From: Phycisphaerae bacterium
Lineage (GTDB): Bacteria > Planctomycetota > Phycisphaerae > Sedimentisphaerales > Anaerobacaceae
DNA length: 64,000 bases
NCBI GenBank assembly: GCA_030604525.1
Contig: JAUVVQ010000009.1
Coordinates: 1 to 64,000, forward strand
Direction: 5' to 3'
The position numbers and the translations under genes were made by a program. This document shows positions 4,691 through 57,531 of the stretch, piece after piece. The notes beneath the pieces were generated by a model, which worked only from the letters and a program-made list of their open reading frames with translations, made no database searches and was not told where the DNA came from. Within the stretch, counting starts at the first letter, position 1; each line of letters starts with the position of its first letter.

Positions 4691-5425
4691 TTATTTTTCA
4701 ACAATTTGTTTTAATCCGGCGGCGTCCTGCGGGGCGTAGCCGGCTTCATCATTATCGAAGTAACAAAAAATTCTCTTTTTCTGCTTTTTCCATTTTATGA
4801 TATCTTCAGCCCAATAGGAAAGGGTTCTCCTGCCGTATCGGCCTTCGTACGGTCCATTTGGTCCGTGAAGTCGGATATAAACGAAATTTGCGGTTACTTC
4901 TTTAGGTGACATTCGGTGGTTGAAATGATAGATACAAAGTGTGGCATTGTGTTCGGCAAGTATATGGAAGACTTCATCAGTAAACCACGTTGGGTCTCTA
5001 AATTCGAAGGCAGAGTCATAATCACCGTGTAAAGCCCGAAGGAAAGCTTCCAATCTTTCGGGATTTACCTTCCATCTCGGCGGCAACTGGAAAAGAATGG
5101 GGCCAAGTTTTTCTTTCAATACATCTATCCTGTTTAAGAATTTAGAAAGCGTTTTTTCGGGGTCTTTTAGTTTTTTCATATGTGTGATGTAACGACTTGC
5201 TTTTACAGCAAATATGAAGTTATCCGGGGCGGTGTCATACCAGAGTTTGAGAGTTTTCTCTTTTGGTAATTGATAAAAAGAATTATTGATTTCAACGGTG
5301 TGGAAATGTTGGATATAGTAATTTAAAAAATCTTTCTGGCGGATATTAGCGGGATAAAATGCTCCTTCCCAATGCCGATAATGCCAGCCGGATGTACCGA
5401 TTTGGATAAGTTTGTTTTTGCCCAT
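4691..5425 (-). CDS. DUF72 family protein (YecE-like)
   Basis: 244 residues from the ATG at 5425, which follows GGAGG by six bases; an upstream TTG at 5455 is less likely. The N-terminal IQIGTSGWHYRHWEGAFYP and the internal KASRYITHMKKL, LGPILFQLPP and FEFRDPTWF are signatures of DUF72, a TIM-barrel-fold family resembling AP endonucleases, with no settled activity. It is cytosolic, with no signal peptide. It is third in a minus-strand run after the GH57 and malQ genes but separated from malQ by about 108 bp, so co-transcription is possible but unproven. Confidence 0.88.
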   Translation of the reverse strand: MGKNKLIQIGTSGWHYRHWEGAFYPANIRQKDFLNYYIQHFHTVEINNSFYQLPKEKTLKLWYDTAPDNFIFAVKASRYITHMKKLKDPEKTLSKFLNRIDVLKEKLGPILFQLPPRWKVNPERLEAFLRALHGDYDSAFEFRDPTWFTDEVFHILAEHNATLCIYHFNHRMSPKEVTANFVYIRLHGPNGPYEGRYGRRTLSYWAEDIIKWKKQKKRIFCYFDNDEAGYAPQDAAGLKQIVEK

Positions 5426-5532
5426 TAGCAACCTCCGCAGATTCCGCCCACTCAATGTTCAAACTGCCACATACGATTATATGGTTTTTGGTTTGAAACA
5501 AAAGGCAAAAGGATGGCGGAGATAATGGAAGG

Positions 5533-7029
5533 TTAAATACGGTCGTAAGTTTTAGTAAGGTTTAGGATTTTCCCTGAGAGCTTTTTTGTAAGTTGAGCTG
5601 ATTTAAGTCTCCATCGCCAGTTTCCTTTTTTTCTGGCGGGGTGATTCATACGAGCATTATGGTCTAAGCCCAGGATGTCCTGGACAGGAATAATTACGAG
5701 GTTTGCCGCTGAACTCATAGCTAAACGAATCAATTTCCAATGAATACGGCTGGGCGGAACTTTGCGACCGAGGTAACTGAAAAGGTTTGTTTTTGTTTTA
5801 AGGTTTGCTTCCTTTGTGAACCAGCCCTTTGCGGTGTTATTATCGTGAGTGCCGGTATATGCAATGCAATTCTTTATATAATTACCAGGGCAATGAGGAC
5901 TTTCGGGAAATTGACTTCCGAAAGCAAAAAGCACAACTCTCATCCCGGGAAACTTATATTTTCTGACAAATTCCCTGACATCAGGCGTGATATATCCTAA
6001 ATCTTCAACAATAATTGAAGAGTGCGGAATATGTTTTAGCAAAGTTTTCAGGAAGTCATCTTTGGGACCATCAACCCACTTTCCGTTAACAGCGTTTTTT
6101 GCACCGGCGGGTATCCGCCAGTACTTAACAAGGCCTCTGAAGTGGTCGATACGAACAAGGTCAAACAAATTCAGGTTGTGTTTTATTCTATTGAGCCACC
6201 ATTCGTAACCGTTTCTTTTCAGTGTATTCCAATCATAGAGGGGGTTATTCCATAACTGTCCGGTTTTGCTGAAGAGGTCTGGAGGGACACCGGAGACGGC
6301 TGCGGGTTTTTTGCCTTTTGACAGTTGAAAGTTCTGCGGATTAGACCAGGCATCTGCGCTGTTATAAGCAACGTATATGGGGACATCGCCTATTATTCTG
6401 ATTCCTTTTTTATTACAGTATCTTTTCAGGGCGAACCATTGGCGGAAAAATATAAACTGGAGGAACTTTTGCTTTCCTATCCGGTTGCGGAGAGCCTCTT
6501 TTACCGATTTGACAGCTTTTTTATTGCTGTCTCTGAACTTCTTAGGCCAATCGCACCATAAGCGGGGATAAAAATAATTACTTAGAACTTCAAAGCAGGC
6601 GTAGTCATCGAGCCAATATTTGTTCTGCAGGCAAAATTTCTTATAATCCGATTTTGTCGATTGTTTTTTGAATTTCTCAAAAGCGATACTAAAAAGTCTG
6701 GCTTTGTACGCCTTTACTTTTCTGTAATCGACTTTCGAATCTGGGAAAGTCGGTACCTCGGATATATCCTCTTTAGAGAGGAGTCCATATTGATATAATA
6801 ACCCGGGGCTGATGAGCAAAGGATTTCCTGCGAAAGCTGAGACGCAATTGTATGGCGAATTATTGCTTTTGCAGGTAGGAGGATTTAAAGGCAGTAACTG
6901 CCAATAGGATTGGCGGGAACGGTTGAGAAAATCGATGAACTTATAGGCCTGAGGCCCCAAGTCACCTATGCCGAATTTCGACGGCAATGATGTTATATGC
7001 AGTAGTAATCCGTTTGCTCTTTTTATCAT
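5533..7029 (-). CDS. malQ: 4-alpha-glucanotransferase (GH77, amylomaltase)
   Basis: 498 residues, a usual MalQ length, starting at ATG with RANGLLLHITSLPSKFGIGDLG. The enzyme moves alpha-1,4-glucan segments between malto-oligosaccharides. GH77 landmarks are present: YWQLLPLNPP, GDVPIYVAYNSADAW, the nucleophile region VRIDHFRGL (Asp near residue 294), the acid/base IVEDLGYITPDV, and AYTGTHDNNTAKGW. There is no signal peptide, so it works in the cytoplasm. It lies 42 bp downstream of the GH57/DUF3536 gene on the same strand, indicating a shared transcript and a joint role in glycogen or maltodextrin turnover. The RBS is weak. Nothing looks broken. Confidence 0.95.
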   Translation of the reverse strand: MIKRANGLLLHITSLPSKFGIGDLGPQAYKFIDFLNRSRQSYWQLLPLNPPTCKSNNSPYNCVSAFAGNPLLISPGLLYQYGLLSKEDISEVPTFPDSKVDYRKVKAYKARLFSIAFEKFKKQSTKSDYKKFCLQNKYWLDDYACFEVLSNYFYPRLWCDWPKKFRDSNKKAVKSVKEALRNRIGKQKFLQFIFFRQWFALKRYCNKKGIRIIGDVPIYVAYNSADAWSNPQNFQLSKGKKPAAVSGVPPDLFSKTGQLWNNPLYDWNTLKRNGYEWWLNRIKHNLNLFDLVRIDHFRGLVKYWRIPAGAKNAVNGKWVDGPKDDFLKTLLKHIPHSSIIVEDLGYITPDVREFVRKYKFPGMRVVLFAFGSQFPESPHCPGNYIKNCIAYTGTHDNNTAKGWFTKEANLKTKTNLFSYLGRKVPPSRIHWKLIRLAMSSAANLVIIPVQDILGLDHNARMNHPARKKGNWRWRLKSAQLTKKLSGKILNLTKTYDRI

Positions 7030-7071
7030 TTTTCGACTTTACAACAGGGATTCATAAAATCGTATACTTTT

Positions 7072-9516
7072 TCAATCGGCATCTTTCTGAGTTATTTTCA
7101 CCTTGAGATAGTTTGCCAGGCCATCAAACTGTTTAATCCATTTTTTAGCAATATCGTCACCGGCGTTGGCTTTTTTATTCATATTGCGATATTTTTGTCC
7201 TGCTAATGCAAATAAGATATTCTGAGCTTTCTGAAGGTCCAGTTGAGGGGCGATTTTACGCAAGGGTTTAAGTGTTTCTTTTATTTCTACAAGCAGGTCG
7301 ATGTTATCAGGGGAATTTTTCAATCTTTCCGCAAGCCGATTCATTTTCCGGGTAGCTTCAAAGCTGAGCTTTGTTCTATCAAGATTCAAAGATAATCTTT
7401 TTGCCTGAGCAATTAAAGTTTTGAGTTGTTCAATGTTGGTGTCGCTGTTTTGTATAATTTTCGAGATATCCTGATTGATTATAAACTCGGCCGGGACAGA
7501 TAGTGCTTTGGGCAGAGGCGTTTTCATATCCTGCATCATTTCCATAACGGTGCAATTATGCTCATAAATGTGCCTGAATGAAGCATCAATTTCCTTCCAG
7601 GTAGTATCAAGCAGCTCGTACAGGATATTCCTCCGGTCGTCTTTGAAAAGATGCCAGAGCGAATAGTTATTTCCGCTAAAAGCTACATTCATAAGCCGCA
7701 TAACCTCAGTGGTATTGCCGCTACGAAAGGCGGTCTCCAGGTTTTCCTGCACTTTGGAAAATTCATTATTATTCATTGCCGGGGTTACAGCACTGATAAG
7801 ATTGTGGTCCCCGAGATGCAAGACAGCAAAATCAACGATGTGTTTTTCAAAAACGATTTTAGACCGGACAGAAGCCCGTCCAGTTGCAAGGATTTGAATT
7901 CCAGCATCGAGACGTTTATAAACTTCGATATCGGTTGCATAGCAATAGATATCCGGATTATTTTTCGGATTTTGCTCTAAAATAGAGCTGACAGCAAGGT
8001 GAGCAGCGACTCTATTCAGGTCGATGGCAGAAGATTTTATAAGTTTTTCGTAAGCGTCTTTTCCATTTTTAAACTTTTCTTCATTAACCTGGGCCTTTTT
8101 AAGGATACTCATAAATTCCGGCTCCAGGTCTTCGCCCGCGATTTCCTTTGTCAATTGAATTGCTCTGGAGGCATACTGCAATATTTGCAGACTTTCGATA
8201 CCGCAGATATCATCGAAGAACCAGCCGCAGCTTGTGAACATCAGCATTGCATTTCTCTGCAACTCAAGTAATTTCAGGAAAAGCACTTTCTCGTCGTCGG
8301 TAATTTTCTTTCGGATACAATTCGGAACGAACTTATCAATGTTAGCGTATGACCTGTCATTTACAACCTGGATATATTCATTTCTTATTTCCCAGGGGTC
8401 GTCCGAGAATTTATCCATTTGTTTTTCATATATAGATGCGGTTTTGTCACGGAGGTAATTCATAGCTTCTCTTAACGGTTCTCTGAACTGTTGTTTCCCG
8501 GAAGGGTATCTACCATAGAAGCAACCGCAATTACTTCTCCATCGTTCGACGCCGTGAGGGCAGCTCCAGGAGGTATTTTCATTGATTTTGACTTCGTCCT
8601 GAGGAGGGAATTTTTCGAGGAATTCGGCGTAAATGGTTGGAGTTGCGAGCTTGTTTTTTTCAATATAGCTCAGGCAGAACGCCAGTGCCATATCCGCATG
8701 TCGGTGGTGATGGCCGTACGTTTCACCATCAGTTGCGATATTAGCAAGTTGGAGATGTTCAGGATTATCATCCATTATGTCAATTAAGCTTTTAGCAAAT
8801 TTATCACCGCTTTTCAGTAGTGAACCGTAAGCAACACCGTGAGAGACCGGTCCATAATAGAAAAACAAGTTTATTTTATTTCCTGAAGGCAAATTGCAAA
8901 GATACGGAACTGTAGTATCCAGGGAATCCTGGTTTACGTCCTGCCATTTGTCGGTATTTATTTTTCTGATTTTTGCAGCTTGATGAGGCGCCAGGATGGT
9001 AAACTTGATGGCGTTCTTGGCCAGGACTTCAAGTGTTTCGATATCTACGGCAGTTTCCGGAAGCCACATACCTTCAGGTTTCCTACAGAAGTGTTTTTCA
9101 AAATCCTTTATCCCCCAAATAACCTGAGTTTCTTTATCCCTTTTGTTTGCCAGCGGCATAATTATGTGGTTGTATGCCTGGGCAATTGCAGGACCGTGTC
9201 CTGAGAAGCTTTTTTGTCCCTGTTTGTCGGCATCCAATATGGCTTGATAGACTTCATTTGCATTTTTTTTGAGCCAGGAGAGTAAAGTTGGTCCGAAATC
9301 AAAACTTATTTTTGAGTAGTTATTTACAATATCAATAATTTTTTTCTTGGAATCGAGTATTCTCGAAGCTGCATTCTGGCTGTAACATTCGTGGTTTATT
9401 TTTTCGTTCCAGTCGTGAAAGGGATAGGCGGAATCCTGTAATTCCACATATTCGAGCCAGGGATTTTCCCTTGGCGGCTGATAAAAATGGCCATGTATGC
9501 AAACGAATTTATTCAT
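7072..9516 (-). CDS. GH57 family glycoside hydrolase with DUF3536
   Basis: 814 residues from the ATG at 9516, giving MNKFVCIHGHFYQPPREN; a TTG at 9543 is an alternative but the family N-terminus begins at the ATG. The first half carries the GH57 barrel motifs: HGHFYQPPRENPWLE, SGHGPAIAQAYNHIIMPL, PEGMWLPETAVD containing the likely nucleophile Glu, and TDGETYGHHHRHAD with the acid/base Asp. The C-terminal half, after WSCPHGVERWRSNCGC, is the helical DUF3536 region of this subfamily. It acts on alpha-glucans such as amylose or glycogen; exact reaction (amylase, transferase or branching) cannot be told. It lacks a signal peptide and is first gene of the group with malQ. Confidence 0.9.
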   Translation of the reverse strand: MNKFVCIHGHFYQPPRENPWLEYVELQDSAYPFHDWNEKINHECYSQNAASRILDSKKKIIDIVNNYSKISFDFGPTLLSWLKKNANEVYQAILDADKQGQKSFSGHGPAIAQAYNHIIMPLANKRDKETQVIWGIKDFEKHFCRKPEGMWLPETAVDIETLEVLAKNAIKFTILAPHQAAKIRKINTDKWQDVNQDSLDTTVPYLCNLPSGNKINLFFYYGPVSHGVAYGSLLKSGDKFAKSLIDIMDDNPEHLQLANIATDGETYGHHHRHADMALAFCLSYIEKNKLATPTIYAEFLEKFPPQDEVKINENTSWSCPHGVERWRSNCGCFYGRYPSGKQQFREPLREAMNYLRDKTASIYEKQMDKFSDDPWEIRNEYIQVVNDRSYANIDKFVPNCIRKKITDDEKVLFLKLLELQRNAMLMFTSCGWFFDDICGIESLQILQYASRAIQLTKEIAGEDLEPEFMSILKKAQVNEEKFKNGKDAYEKLIKSSAIDLNRVAAHLAVSSILEQNPKNNPDIYCYATDIEVYKRLDAGIQILATGRASVRSKIVFEKHIVDFAVLHLGDHNLISAVTPAMNNNEFSKVQENLETAFRSGNTTEVMRLMNVAFSGNNYSLWHLFKDDRRNILYELLDTTWKEIDASFRHIYEHNCTVMEMMQDMKTPLPKALSVPAEFIINQDISKIIQNSDTNIEQLKTLIAQAKRLSLNLDRTKLSFEATRKMNRLAERLKNSPDNIDLLVEIKETLKPLRKIAPQLDLQKAQNILFALAGQKYRNMNKKANAGDDIAKKWIKQFDGLANYLKVKITQKDAD

Positions 9517-14159: not shown

Positions 14160-14951
14160 ATGGAAATAATTATTACGCCCGATTATGAGCAGATGAGCAA
14201 GACTTCCGCACAGATAATCGCCAGGGAAATCAGAAAACAGCATGATTTAGTTCTGGGTCTGGCAACCGGCGATACGCCGGTGGGAACATACAAAGAACTT
14301 GCGAAAACGCATAAAGAGGAAGGTTTGGATTTCTCGAAGGTTACGGCGTTTAATCTGGATGAATATGTCGGTCTGGCTCCACTACACGAAAACAGTTACA
14401 ACTTTTTTATGGAGGAAAATCTGTTCAAAGACATCAACGTAAACCCTGAAAATGTTTACGTGCCTCAGGGAAATACTAACGACCCGGAGGAATTCAGCCA
14501 GTGGTATGAGAAAAAGATTAAAGAAGCAGGGGGCTTAGACCTTCAGGTGCTGGGTATAGGTGGTGACGGACATATCGGGTTCAATGAGCCGGGTTCATCT
14601 TTTGCCAGCAGGACCAGGGTCAAGGCGCTGGAAAAACAGACTATCGAAGACAACTCCCGGTTTTTCGAAAAAGAAGAGGACGTTCCGAGATTCGCTATCA
14701 CTATGGGCATAGGGACAATACTGGAGGCGAAAAAGATTCTCCTGATTGCGAACGGAGAGAACAAGGCAAATGTATGTGCACAATTCATCGAAGGGCCTGT
14801 CAGCAGTCAGATAACCGCATCTGCGCTTCAACTGCATAGTTATGTTACGGTGGTGCTGGACGAAGCGGCGGCATCAAAACTCAAGAGAAAGGACTATTAT
14901 AACTGGGTTCGTGACAACAAGCATCTGGTTCAGAAAAAGGTCGGACGCTGA
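14160..14951 (+). CDS. nagB: Glucosamine-6-phosphate deaminase
   Basis: 263 residues. It converts glucosamine-6-phosphate to fructose-6-phosphate and ammonia. Family motifs are clear: LGLATGDTPVGTYKEL near the N-terminus, FNLDEYVGL with the catalytic Asp, and GIGGDGHIGFNEPGSSF with the Asp/His/Glu set of the active site. The start follows AAAGGAG. It is followed by a mobile palindromic repeat, a DUF4954 gene and glmS, which runs the opposite reaction direction, so the locus controls flux between glycolysis and amino-sugars. There is no nagA nearby. Nothing is broken. Confidence 0.96.
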   Translation: MEIIITPDYEQMSKTSAQIIAREIRKQHDLVLGLATGDTPVGTYKELAKTHKEEGLDFSKVTAFNLDEYVGLAPLHENSYNFFMEENLFKDINVNPENVYVPQGNTNDPEEFSQWYEKKIKEAGGLDLQVLGIGGDGHIGFNEPGSSFASRTRVKALEKQTIEDNSRFFEKEEDVPRFAITMGIGTILEAKKILLIANGENKANVCAQFIEGPVSSQITASALQLHSYVTVVLDEAAASKLKRKDYYNWVRDNKHLVQKKVGR

Positions 14952-14979: not shown

Positions 14980-15114
14980 AGTAACTAATATCTGTTGCAG
15001 AAAGCCAAAATCGGCGATGTCACCCCTGTGAAAACAGGGGGCTACGACGAAAAAACTGGATTCCCGCTTACGCGGGAATGACAGAATGTTGTTTCCGCAA
15101 CAGGAAGTAACTAA
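14980..15114. mobile_element. MITE-like palindromic element with 9 bp target duplication
   Basis: A 117 bp segment (14989-15105) is flanked by exact direct repeats AGTAACTAA at 14980-14988 and 15106-15114, as left by a transposition. Its ends are imperfect inverted repeats: CTGTTGCAGAAA on the left and TTTCCGCAACAG on the right (one mismatch). Inside are two hairpins: CCCCTGT-GAAA-ACAGGGG (15024-15041 approximately) and ATTCCCGC-TTAC-GCGGGAAT (15060-15079). No ORF fits. A second copy lies at 57071-57182 on the other strand. It is probably moved in trans by a transposase elsewhere in the genome. Confidence 0.72.
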
Positions 15115-15275
15115 ATAAACGTTGAACTCTCAAAGATATCAATACAGCGGTGTTTTCTTAAAAACGAAACTTTTTGCTCCAAGGCCATCAAGGTTGTTTA
15201 GTTAGTGGTTTAAAACCGGCCGCTGGATGATTTACCCTGGTGGCTAATAGCTACTATTCACAGGAGGTATTTGAA

Positions 15276-17273
15276 ATGGCATCGGATATTCGCCCGTTAA
15301 CTAAAAATGAGATATCTCAGTTACAAAACCAGGGATGCAGTTCATCAGACTGGAAGAACATCAAGGTCGCTGACCGTTTCAACCCTGAAAGAATCAAATC
15401 CGTACATTTCTCAGGCAATGTTGAAATAGGTGAGCTTGAGAAAACGATAACTTTTTATGGCGGCCTGAGAAAACCATCGGGCATAATCGGTGCTGCAATC
15501 CATAACTGCAAAATTGGAAACAACGTATATATTAGCAATGTCAGCAATTACATAGCCAATTATACAATCGAGGATGATGTAGTTATAGACAATGTTGACC
15601 TGGTGGCGGTTGATGGGGAAAGCGGGTTCGGCAACGGCACTGAAGTCAGCGTTTTAAACGAAGGCGGCGGCAGAGAGATACCCATCTACGACCATTTAAC
15701 TGCGCAGATTGCTTACATCTTGGCTCTTTACCGTCACCGCAGGAAAACGATTGAGAATATTCGGAAGATGATTTCCCAATACGTTAGTTCCGTCACATCT
15801 TCTCAGGGACTTATATCATCCGGTGCGCAGATTTCCAACTCCGGCACTCTTAAAAATGTAAAGGTCGGCTCTTGTGCGGTGATTGAAGGAGCAGCGAGAC
15901 TGGAAAATGGAACAATAAACAGTTGCTCTGAAGCTCCGACGTATATTGGCCAGGCAGTTGTAGCTGAGGATTTTATCATTTGCTCAGGTGCACAAGTTAC
16001 CGACGCTGCGATATTATCTAAATGTTTTGTGGGTCAGGCCACGGTTTTAGGCAGACAGTTTTCAGCAGAGAACTCGACGTTTTTTGCCAATTGCGAAGCA
16101 TTTCACGGCGAGGCATGCTCGCTTTTTGCCGGACCTTACAGTGTTACGCATCACAAATCGACACTTCTTATCGCCGTTATGTGCTCTTTTTACAACGCAG
16201 GAAGCGGAACAAATCAAAGTAACCATATGTACAAGTTAGGACCGGTTCACCAGGGAGTTCTTGAAAGGGGTTCCAAGACCGGCTCGTATTCCTACTTGCT
16301 CTGGCCTGCCCGCCTCGGCGCCTTTTCCACCGTCATCGGCAAGCATTATGCAAGATTTGATACGTCTGGATTACCTTTTTCTCAAGTTTTGGAATCAGAA
16401 GGCAAAAGCGTAGTTGTCCCGGCGGTGAACCTCGGAACTGTTGGAACAGTCAGGGATGCAGATAAATGGCCCAAACGCGACAAACGCAAAGACCCACAAA
16501 AAATGGACTTGATAAATTTCAAGTCATTAGCCCTCAATCCTTTCACCGTCCAGAAGATGTTCGCCAGCCGGCAGATACTGTTAAATCTTCAGGCCAATTT
16601 TGACAAAGAATCCAATTATGTAAACTACGGAGAGCTTTATTTAGATAGAAAAAATTTACAGAAAGGTATTGAACTTTATCAAATGGGCATTGATAAATAT
16701 CTTGGCGATTGCCTCATCGAACGGTTAAACAATAATTCTGTTGAAAATCTTAAGCAGCTAAGAGCTGTTTTAGCTTCGGATACCAATCCGGAGGAAGCAG
16801 GCTGGGTTGATATGTTCGGGTTACTTGCTCCCGAGCAGACGGTGGAGGAAATTCTAAAATCAGTTGAAGAAGAAACTTTAAAGACAGTTGAACAAATAGA
16901 GCGAAAATTCCAGGATGTTTACGAGAGGTATCCTGAATATGAATGGGCATGGGTGGTGAAACAGATTGAAAGGATTTTAGCAAAAAACATCGAGAAGGCA
17001 ACCGGCAAAGATATAACCGGGCTGATAGCCCGATGGAAAAAGGCAACAGAGACGCTCAATGGTTTGATTTTGAAAGATGCTGAGAAAGAATTTGCGGCCT
17101 CTTCGATGACCGGCTACGGCCTTGACGGAGATGAGAAGAGAAAAGAAGCTGACTTCCGTATGGTAAGAGGCAGCTATGAGGAGAACAGTTTCGTCCGCAG
17201 CATTAAGAACGATACGGTTGAGAAAGGGGAAATAGCCGATAAGCTGTCAGCAAAAATAGCCGGATGTGATTAG
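15276..17273 (+). CDS. DUF4954 family protein, left-handed beta-helix
   Basis: 665 residues from the ATG at 15276, which follows AGGAGGT by seven bases; a further upstream start at 15240 has no such support. Residues about 45-400 show hexapeptide-like repeats (for instance GNNVYISNVSNYIANYTIEDDVVIDNV and GSCAVIEGAARLENGTI split into coils), as in nucleotidyltransferase-associated beta-helices. The C-terminal third is helical and charged. The family is DUF4954, common in Bacteroidota and PVC bacteria, with no proved reaction; a link to UDP-sugar metabolism is suggested by resemblance to the acyl/pyrophosphorylase helix and by its place between nagB and glmS. Cytosolic, no signal peptide. Confidence 0.8.
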   Translation: MASDIRPLTKNEISQLQNQGCSSSDWKNIKVADRFNPERIKSVHFSGNVEIGELEKTITFYGGLRKPSGIIGAAIHNCKIGNNVYISNVSNYIANYTIEDDVVIDNVDLVAVDGESGFGNGTEVSVLNEGGGREIPIYDHLTAQIAYILALYRHRRKTIENIRKMISQYVSSVTSSQGLISSGAQISNSGTLKNVKVGSCAVIEGAARLENGTINSCSEAPTYIGQAVVAEDFIICSGAQVTDAAILSKCFVGQATVLGRQFSAENSTFFANCEAFHGEACSLFAGPYSVTHHKSTLLIAVMCSFYNAGSGTNQSNHMYKLGPVHQGVLERGSKTGSYSYLLWPARLGAFSTVIGKHYARFDTSGLPFSQVLESEGKSVVVPAVNLGTVGTVRDADKWPKRDKRKDPQKMDLINFKSLALNPFTVQKMFASRQILLNLQANFDKESNYVNYGELYLDRKNLQKGIELYQMGIDKYLGDCLIERLNNNSVENLKQLRAVLASDTNPEEAGWVDMFGLLAPEQTVEEILKSVEEETLKTVEQIERKFQDVYERYPEYEWAWVVKQIERILAKNIEKATGKDITGLIARWKKATETLNGLILKDAEKEFAASSMTGYGLDGDEKRKEADFRMVRGSYEENSFVRSIKNDTVEKGEIADKLSAKIAGCD

Positions 17274-57070: not shown

Positions 57071-57182
57071 CTGTTGTCAAAACAGTATTTTTCTCATTCC
57101 TGCGGAAGCAGGAATCCAGTTTTTTGCTTGCTAACTCTGTTTTCACCGGGTTAACTTCATCGATTTTCGCTTTCCGCAACAG
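57071..57182 (-). mobile_element. Second copy of the MITE-like palindromic element
   Basis: On the minus strand it starts CTGTTGCGGAAAGC, contains GGTGAAAACAG, AAAAAACTGGATTCC and the hairpin ATTCCTGC-GGAA-GCAGGAAT (57096-57115), and ends TTTTGACAACAG. It aligns along its length with the element at 14989-15105. It sits exactly where the GH97 reading frame is lost. No clear target duplication remains. Confidence 0.7.
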
Positions 57183-57531
57183 GGATATTTCTTCTCGCGC
57201 AGCAATAATTGCAGCTCGTTGTAATAGTTCCGAATTGTTTTATGCTTGCCAAATAGAGGTCCCCATCTTTTATTAACGCTTTGGGTCTTCTTATCTTCAA
57301 TAACAAAGTCTTTTTCATAAGCAGCAGAAACCGCAAACTCAAGACTAAATGCCGATTCAAAATAATCACTTCGTTATTAAAGCTTATTGTGTAAGTGATA
57401 CGGTCTTCTATATTCAGCTCAAACCTTACAGCTTTGTCAGGTGACAATAATACTATTGGTTTTGCAGATAACTGTTGTGCAGTGCCGATAAATATGAAAC
57501 TGAATAAAATGATTGTTCTTAAGAGTTTCAT
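57183..57531 (-). pseudogene. Truncated, frameshifted GH97 glycoside hydrolase (N-terminal domain only)
   Basis: ATG 57531 opens a signal peptide (LLRTIILFSFIFIGTAQQ) and IVLLSPDKAVRFELNIEDRI, YTISFNNEVII, the N-terminal beta-supersandwich of GH97. A frame change near the isoleucines then continues in another frame: ESAFSLEFAVSAAYE, RWGPLFGKHKTIRNYYNELQ and LLLREKKY, where family members have WxPVWGExxxIRNHYNEL. The catalytic barrel is missing; the repeat element begins right there. An original protein of about 650 residues is reduced to about 115. It once belonged to the alpha-glucosidase/alpha-galactosidase family. Confidence 0.8.

Follow-up and report, generated by a model that had tools for sequence, protein, structure and literature searches.

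A 120-bp MITE in a Phycisphaerae genome, from a family with shared ends and variable hairpin cores

The window analyzed here, a stretch of 64,000 nucleotides, belongs to the 2.35-Mb metagenome-assembled genome (MAG) of a Phycisphaerae bacterium, which is 82% complete and consists of 89 contigs. As listed in Table 1, one 120-bp segment is intergenic, with nagB on one side and a second gene on the other; the latter gene starts at either 15240 or 15276, where an ATG is found. The original prediction described a non-coding segment of 117 bp at this site. The segment is non-coding, but its length is 120 bp according to the family alignment. It contains two perfect hairpins, as predicted, with stems of 7 bp (15023–15040) and 8 bp (15060–15079). 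The ATTCCCGC hairpin is scattered, as had been proposed, and also occurs outside the element; here, however, it is paired with a second hairpin in inverted orientation. Relatives of hairpin A that lack the ends of the element (hereafter, the shell) are present in the same genome.

Table 1. Coordinates of the element, its parts, its neighbours and its copies in the host genome
Feature	Position	Strand	Remark
nagB, glucosamine-6-phosphate deaminase, upstream neighbour	14160..14951	+	
Left target-site duplication, TAACTA	14982..14987	.	
MITE, non-coding, 120 bp	14988..15107	+	Boundaries by alignment of 79 copies and 121 distinct copies
Left terminal inverted repeat, consensus GTWYCTGTTGCGGAAAG	14988..15004	+	First base here A, consensus G
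Core hairpin A, TGTCA tag	15018..15040	+	Stem CCCCTGT / ACAGGGG, 15023–15029 and 15034–15040
Core hairpin B, TGTCA tag, inverted relative to A	15060..15083	-	Stem ATTCCCGC / GCGGGAAT, 15060–15079
Right terminal inverted repeat	15091..15107	-	Terminal base off consensus
Right target-site duplication, TAACTA	15108..15113	.	
Downstream neighbour gene	15240..17273	+	Weak match (E 4e-4) to mannose-1-phosphate guanylyltransferase model
Second copy of the element in the window	57071..57189	-	Older, duplication decayed
Copies in the host genome (contig:position)	C44:14980, C46:14428, C64:15902, C45:14622, C44:57071, C87 ~11.5 kb, C40 ~16.6 kb		

The boundaries of the element were analyzed in 79 aligned copies from L091–L170, two more being dropped at contig edges. 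At each of the six positions outside the ends, the left and right bases agree in 68–71 of the 79 copies. The base adjoining each end is fixed: it is G in 74/79 copies at the left end and C in 73/79 at the right end. This base shows no covariation with the flank on the other side; therefore, it belongs to the element, and a duplication of 9 or 8 bp is ruled out. The 6-bp duplication is perfect in 76 of 121 distinct copies, compared to a mean of 7.5 and a maximum of 16 in 2000 shuffles, and at least five of the six bases match in 97. The duplicated sequence differs among copies and matches within each copy; its consensus is TAnnTA. Around the window copy, AGTAACTAA is indeed repeated at 14980–14988 and 15106–15114. 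The 9-bp duplication that was read from this repeat does not stand, as the duplicated sequence is TAACTA and the other three of the nine bases match by chance: both terminal bases of this copy are off consensus, which makes nine bases, instead of six, look repeated.

The inverted 12-mers reported earlier (14992–15003 and 15092–15103) are present and imperfect, with 11 of 12 bases complementary; the terminal inverted repeats of the family, however, are 17 bp in length (GTWYCTGTTGCGGAAAG). Positions 5–16 of the repeat were fixed by the search pattern, whereas G1, T2 and G17 lie outside it. Over the 17 core clusters described below, these three bases are conserved in 16, 16 and 14 clusters at the left end and in 15, 17 and 11 at the right end, respectively.

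Within the host genome, BLAST gave 35 matches to the element at E ≤ 10, and at least seven copies, mostly decayed, were recognized by eye (Table 1); the copy on C87 still has TATCTA on both sides. The original prediction had called for a genome search, and this search did return copies with matching ends. Including the host, 77 of the 99 genomes searched as relatives have matches at E ≤ 0.001, many of them to a hairpin only. Among the matches listed, near-full-length ones occur in 13 relatives, at 80–88% identity for most. In 14 genomes, chosen because they had matched, the exact 12-base end has a maximum count of 82 in one genome (G056), compared to at most 4 for a reversed-pattern control. 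These same-ended copies in the host and its relatives, together with their matched duplications, bear out the proposal of a palindromic mobile element.

The family is abundant in the Sedimentisphaerales, the host's own group, and patchy elsewhere in the Planctomycetota: any exact end was found in 25 genomes of a phylum sample of 392, and 15 or more ends in three only (G159, G248 and G475). A scan of genome contigs gave at least 115 stretches with the element; among the matches listed, 112 are titled as planctomycetes, and the titles of the others are Kiritimatiellae (L109), FCPU426 (L142) and an Actinomycetes MAG (L150). Since most hosts are MAGs, these three occurrences may be binning errors. 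The planctomycete-type MITE in the Actinomycetes-titled MAG reflects either transfer or a mistake in binning or naming. Viral contigs scanned for the element contained no MITE, and the 120 matches resembling its terminal repeat that were inspected in them are apparently fortuitous. Plasmids, queried with 30 bases of a MITE end, gave no match better than E 0.4.

Gene order around the window copy is not conserved in any relative examined. One unoccupied site was found for a different copy, located near L426 7237–7363 in G056, with TAATTA on both sides, in the interval separating a sulfatase-like gene from its neighbour. In G033, which is of the same genus, the syntenic interval is short and without the element, the flanks having diverged too far to define the empty site to the base. 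The segment is thus short and non-coding, has terminal inverted repeats and a duplication that varies among copies and matches within them, occurs in dispersed copies, and has an unoccupied counterpart for the G056 copy, all of which are the features of a MITE.

We also considered a static intergenic hairpin, either a terminator or a structured RNA, that is kept for its function and is flanked by direct repeats fortuitously. On the minus strand, hairpin B is terminator-like, with a T tract, and the fold of the segment as single-stranded DNA is strong (−28.3 kcal/mol, z = −5.85; none of 200 shuffles was equal). However, the dispersed copies lie in unrelated contexts and have matched duplications, the G056 copy has its empty site in G033, and no Rfam family matches the 120-bp segment at the gathering threshold, so that a static hairpin is extremely improbable.

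Several further arrangements of the element were seen. Tandem MITEs, in which neighbours share one duplication (L092 1655–1901, L248 2941–3343 and L256 3042–3272), look as if new copies enter an old target site. In G100 (L257–L275), many contigs stop inside a MITE, with the end located ∼70–80 bp from the contig edge, indicating that the repeat breaks assembly. In two related genomes (L528 and L529, ∼1500), a pilus-type ATPase gene has a lone element end fused to its stop codon, at an identical position in both, which points to an old insertion that was vertically inherited.

Different from the ends, the middle of the element is variable. When clustered by their middles, the 121 elements fell into 17 groups (73, 20, 7, 5, three of 2 and ten of 1), whose ends are common and whose cores have no similarity above the applied threshold. 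Representative cores of 15 of the 17 groups fold with z < −3, and nearly all are inverted hairpin pairs. G099, G100, G056 and G102 each contain more than one core type. Core-like places without a shell were found in four of nine hosts, the other five, with small amounts of sequence, having none. G099 has 34 such places in 319 kb, with no end within 170 bp, while G105 has 2, G100 one and G101 one. In the genome of the window, tagged hairpins occur without the ends too. These distributions suggest an origin of the cores by capture of dispersed hairpin repeats.

Some hairpins, both within and outside shells, contain a second hairpin in their loop (for example, L560, L094 and L016); such nesting was observed in the host genome at L015–L020, L024 and L026, and also in L148. 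In a first version of a loop-insertion test, the MITE cores acted as a confounder. A cleaner test gave 16 insertions into loops of ATTCC-type hairpins and 4 into those of CCCC-type hairpins, compared to 1–6 and 0–1, respectively, for breaks in the stems at a distance from the loop (hairpin elements 6–9 and 16–18); breaks near the loop give overlapping counts, and those near the edge are dominated by trivial matches. The counts weakly favour hairpin loops and are suggestive only. Y1 transposase genes of G099 (L457, L459 and L461) have repeated hairpins of their own alongside, unlike the MITE cores.

Given its core, a pair of inverted hairpins, the element could be a REP/REPIN-type palindrome that is spread by a tyrosine (Y1/RAYT) transposase and is flanked by a repeat by chance. 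Y1 transposase genes were present in all six hosts tested, and one Y1 gene of G000 has a nested hairpin ∼240 nt downstream. However, Y1 enzymes are not known to make target duplications, and the finding that 76 of 121 copies have matched 6-bp duplications largely refutes this explanation. In addition, one of the searched element or hairpin motifs was near 4 of the 30 Y1 loci fetched, with no consistent place there, and Y1/RAYT was rejected as the mover. We therefore regard spread by a Y1 enzyme as very unlikely.

A remnant in G471, which belongs to another planctomycete family, points to a different type of enzyme. In L527/L566, TAATTA and the adjoining element end, GTATCTGTTGCGGAAAAG, are followed by a decayed transposase on the other strand, whose stop codon is 199 nt from the element end. 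A readable stretch of 124 residues matches NF033593 (transpos_ISNCY_1) with E 6.5e-15 and 54.7 bits, compared to a cut-off of 325 for the full-length protein; IS5_1 is second, with E 2.2e-9. The remnant is a single case, from a different bacterial family than the window host, and its other end was looked for and not found. Its intact relatives are located on rhizobial plasmids and annotated as ISRtr6, ISRm17, ISMlo5 or ISNCY. An inverted-repeat search with no prior assumption on ends or duplication gave their terminal repeats, GTTTCCGTCCACAAAC or GTGCCCGTCCATAAAC and close variants, beside TAGCTA, TAGACTA or TAGTCTA. In a second search, the lengths were 1663–1669 bp and the stop-to-end distances 188–193 nt for five rhizobial elements, and one element on a Thermobacillus plasmid was 1617 bp in length, with TACTTA duplications and the ends GTTTCCCCTGAAAAAG and GTTGCTCCTGAAAAAG. 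All six intact elements have GT...AC ends, and their duplications are TAGCTA (three), TACTTA (one), TAGACTA (one) and TAGTCTA (one), i.e. 7 bp rather than 6 bp in two of the six. ISNCY-like matches on a Planctomyces plasmid (L572) and in L574 and L575 showed no clean ends. A passage in PMC10194956 assigns ISRm17 to the ISDol1 group of ISNCY.

Since the boundary bases, the target and the geometry match, an ISDol1-group transposase is the most likely, although not proven, mover of the MITE; from these sequence likenesses we infer both the identity of the enzyme and mobilization in trans. Among the sequences examined, no intact element combines the exact MITE ends with a transposase. Likewise, no full insertion sequence with these ends and 9-bp duplications, as originally envisaged, was found, and the best candidate parent group makes duplications of 6–7 bp. 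Over the sequence collected in the analysis, the ISNCY protein profile matched only the L527/L566 remnant, which was itself in the seed. Phages had no ISNCY match, and viral contigs had no relative of ISRtr6.

Kilobase-scale pairs of ends were rejected as autonomous elements, as those in L123, L503, L504, L505, L557 and L111 enclose ordinary genes (named from translations by eye only in L504). The L123 stretch (4812–7227; Candidatus Scalindua rubra) is 2.4 kb in length, and has MITE ends and TAATTA on both sides. Genes for a WbsX glycosyltransferase and a nitroreductase lie inside it, together with a SPASM fragment; the stretch is either cargo or two half-elements. PF01609 transposases, which were matched in six MITE-rich genomes, were also rejected, since they do not have such ends.

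Another DDE family, for example an IS6/IS26-like or an unrecognized IS5-type enzyme, could move the MITE instead. What we take to be the IS6/IS26 ends (GGnnCTGTTGCAAA) resemble the MITE ends, with CTGTTGC presumably at the same distance from the end, and the weaker IS5_1 match of the remnant is in favour of an IS5-type enzyme. However, IS6 duplications are 8 bp, compared to 6 bp in the MITE family, and PF13610 (DDE_Tnp_IS240) reached its cut-off in none of 15 MITE hosts, with one match below threshold; on the latter ground an IS6 parent was rejected. Overall, another DDE family is an unlikely mover, though less unlikely than a Y1 enzyme.

We favour an ISDol1-group enzyme: the segment is a non-autonomous MITE with a variable core of host-type hairpin repeats, and its 17-bp ends are probably recognized in trans by a DDE transposase, for which the ISDol1 group of ISNCY is the most likely source. 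The enzyme would cut at the GT...AC termini and insert the element into a palindromic YTAnnTAR target with a 6-nt stagger, which would leave the TAACTA duplication. Only the ends would be needed for movement, leaving the middle free to change; in the host lineage the middle would be an inverted pair of TGTCA-tagged host-type hairpin repeats, and in other hosts an unrelated pair. A more tentative proposal, which we consider possible rather than probable, is that a universal ISDol1-type end pair acts as a shell that repeatedly captures the common inverted hairpin doublet of each host, perhaps as a result of hairpin repeats inserting themselves into the loops of hairpins. The DDE-moved shell and the independently mobile hairpins would then form chimeras that spread together over the Planctomycetota and a few other phyla.

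The segment is of an ordinary kind, a MITE, with a less ordinary design, in which one shell carries many hairpin cores and is broadly spread. The ends, the 6-bp duplication, the multiple copies, the one empty site and the differing cores inside identical ends are established, while the little-known transposase group behind the MITE is plausible. In the open PMC literature, we found no description of a MITE family with these ends. The family is a large planctomycete repeat family that visibly breaks assemblies and is probably tied to a little-studied transposase group. As a natural case of one transposon end set carrying many unrelated hairpin cores, it opens the origin of REP-like doublets, and the interplay of these with DDE transposons, to testing. 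It also calls for caution, as hairpin repeats that are counted as independent REPs may ride in MITEs.

Compared to the ISDol1 group of ISNCY (ISRm17, ISRtr6 and ISMlo5), the MITE has the same GT...AC ends and TAn(2–3)TA duplication and, in the one remnant (L527/L566), the same placement of the end with respect to the stop codon of the transposase. It differs in the inner bases of the terminal repeats (CTGTTGCGGAAAG versus CCGTCCAYAAAC; ∼9 of 16 bases are common to the rhizobial and MITE ends), in its duplication of 6 bp versus 6 or 7 bp in the intact elements, and in the absence of a transposase. Being non-coding and without an ISNCY transposase, it is at most a derivative of this group and not a member IS. 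Judged from excerpts of their descriptions, bacterial MITEs such as Correia/NEMIS, Nezha, Chunjie and QMITE are likewise short and non-coding, with terminal inverted repeats, a target duplication and many intergenic copies; the 6-bp TAnnTA duplication and the identical ends around unrelated cores across phyla distinguish the present family from them. REP/REPIN/BIME doublets resemble the core only, as an inverted pair of tagged hairpins that stands alone in some hosts. Different from these doublets, the MITE core is enclosed by DDE-type ends and a duplication, and its tag is TGTCA, not GTAG or CGTC. Finally, the stem of hairpin B is of a type that we take to be that of the dRS3-type ATTCCC...GGGAAT repeats of Neisseria, whereas here this hairpin is part of a larger MITE.
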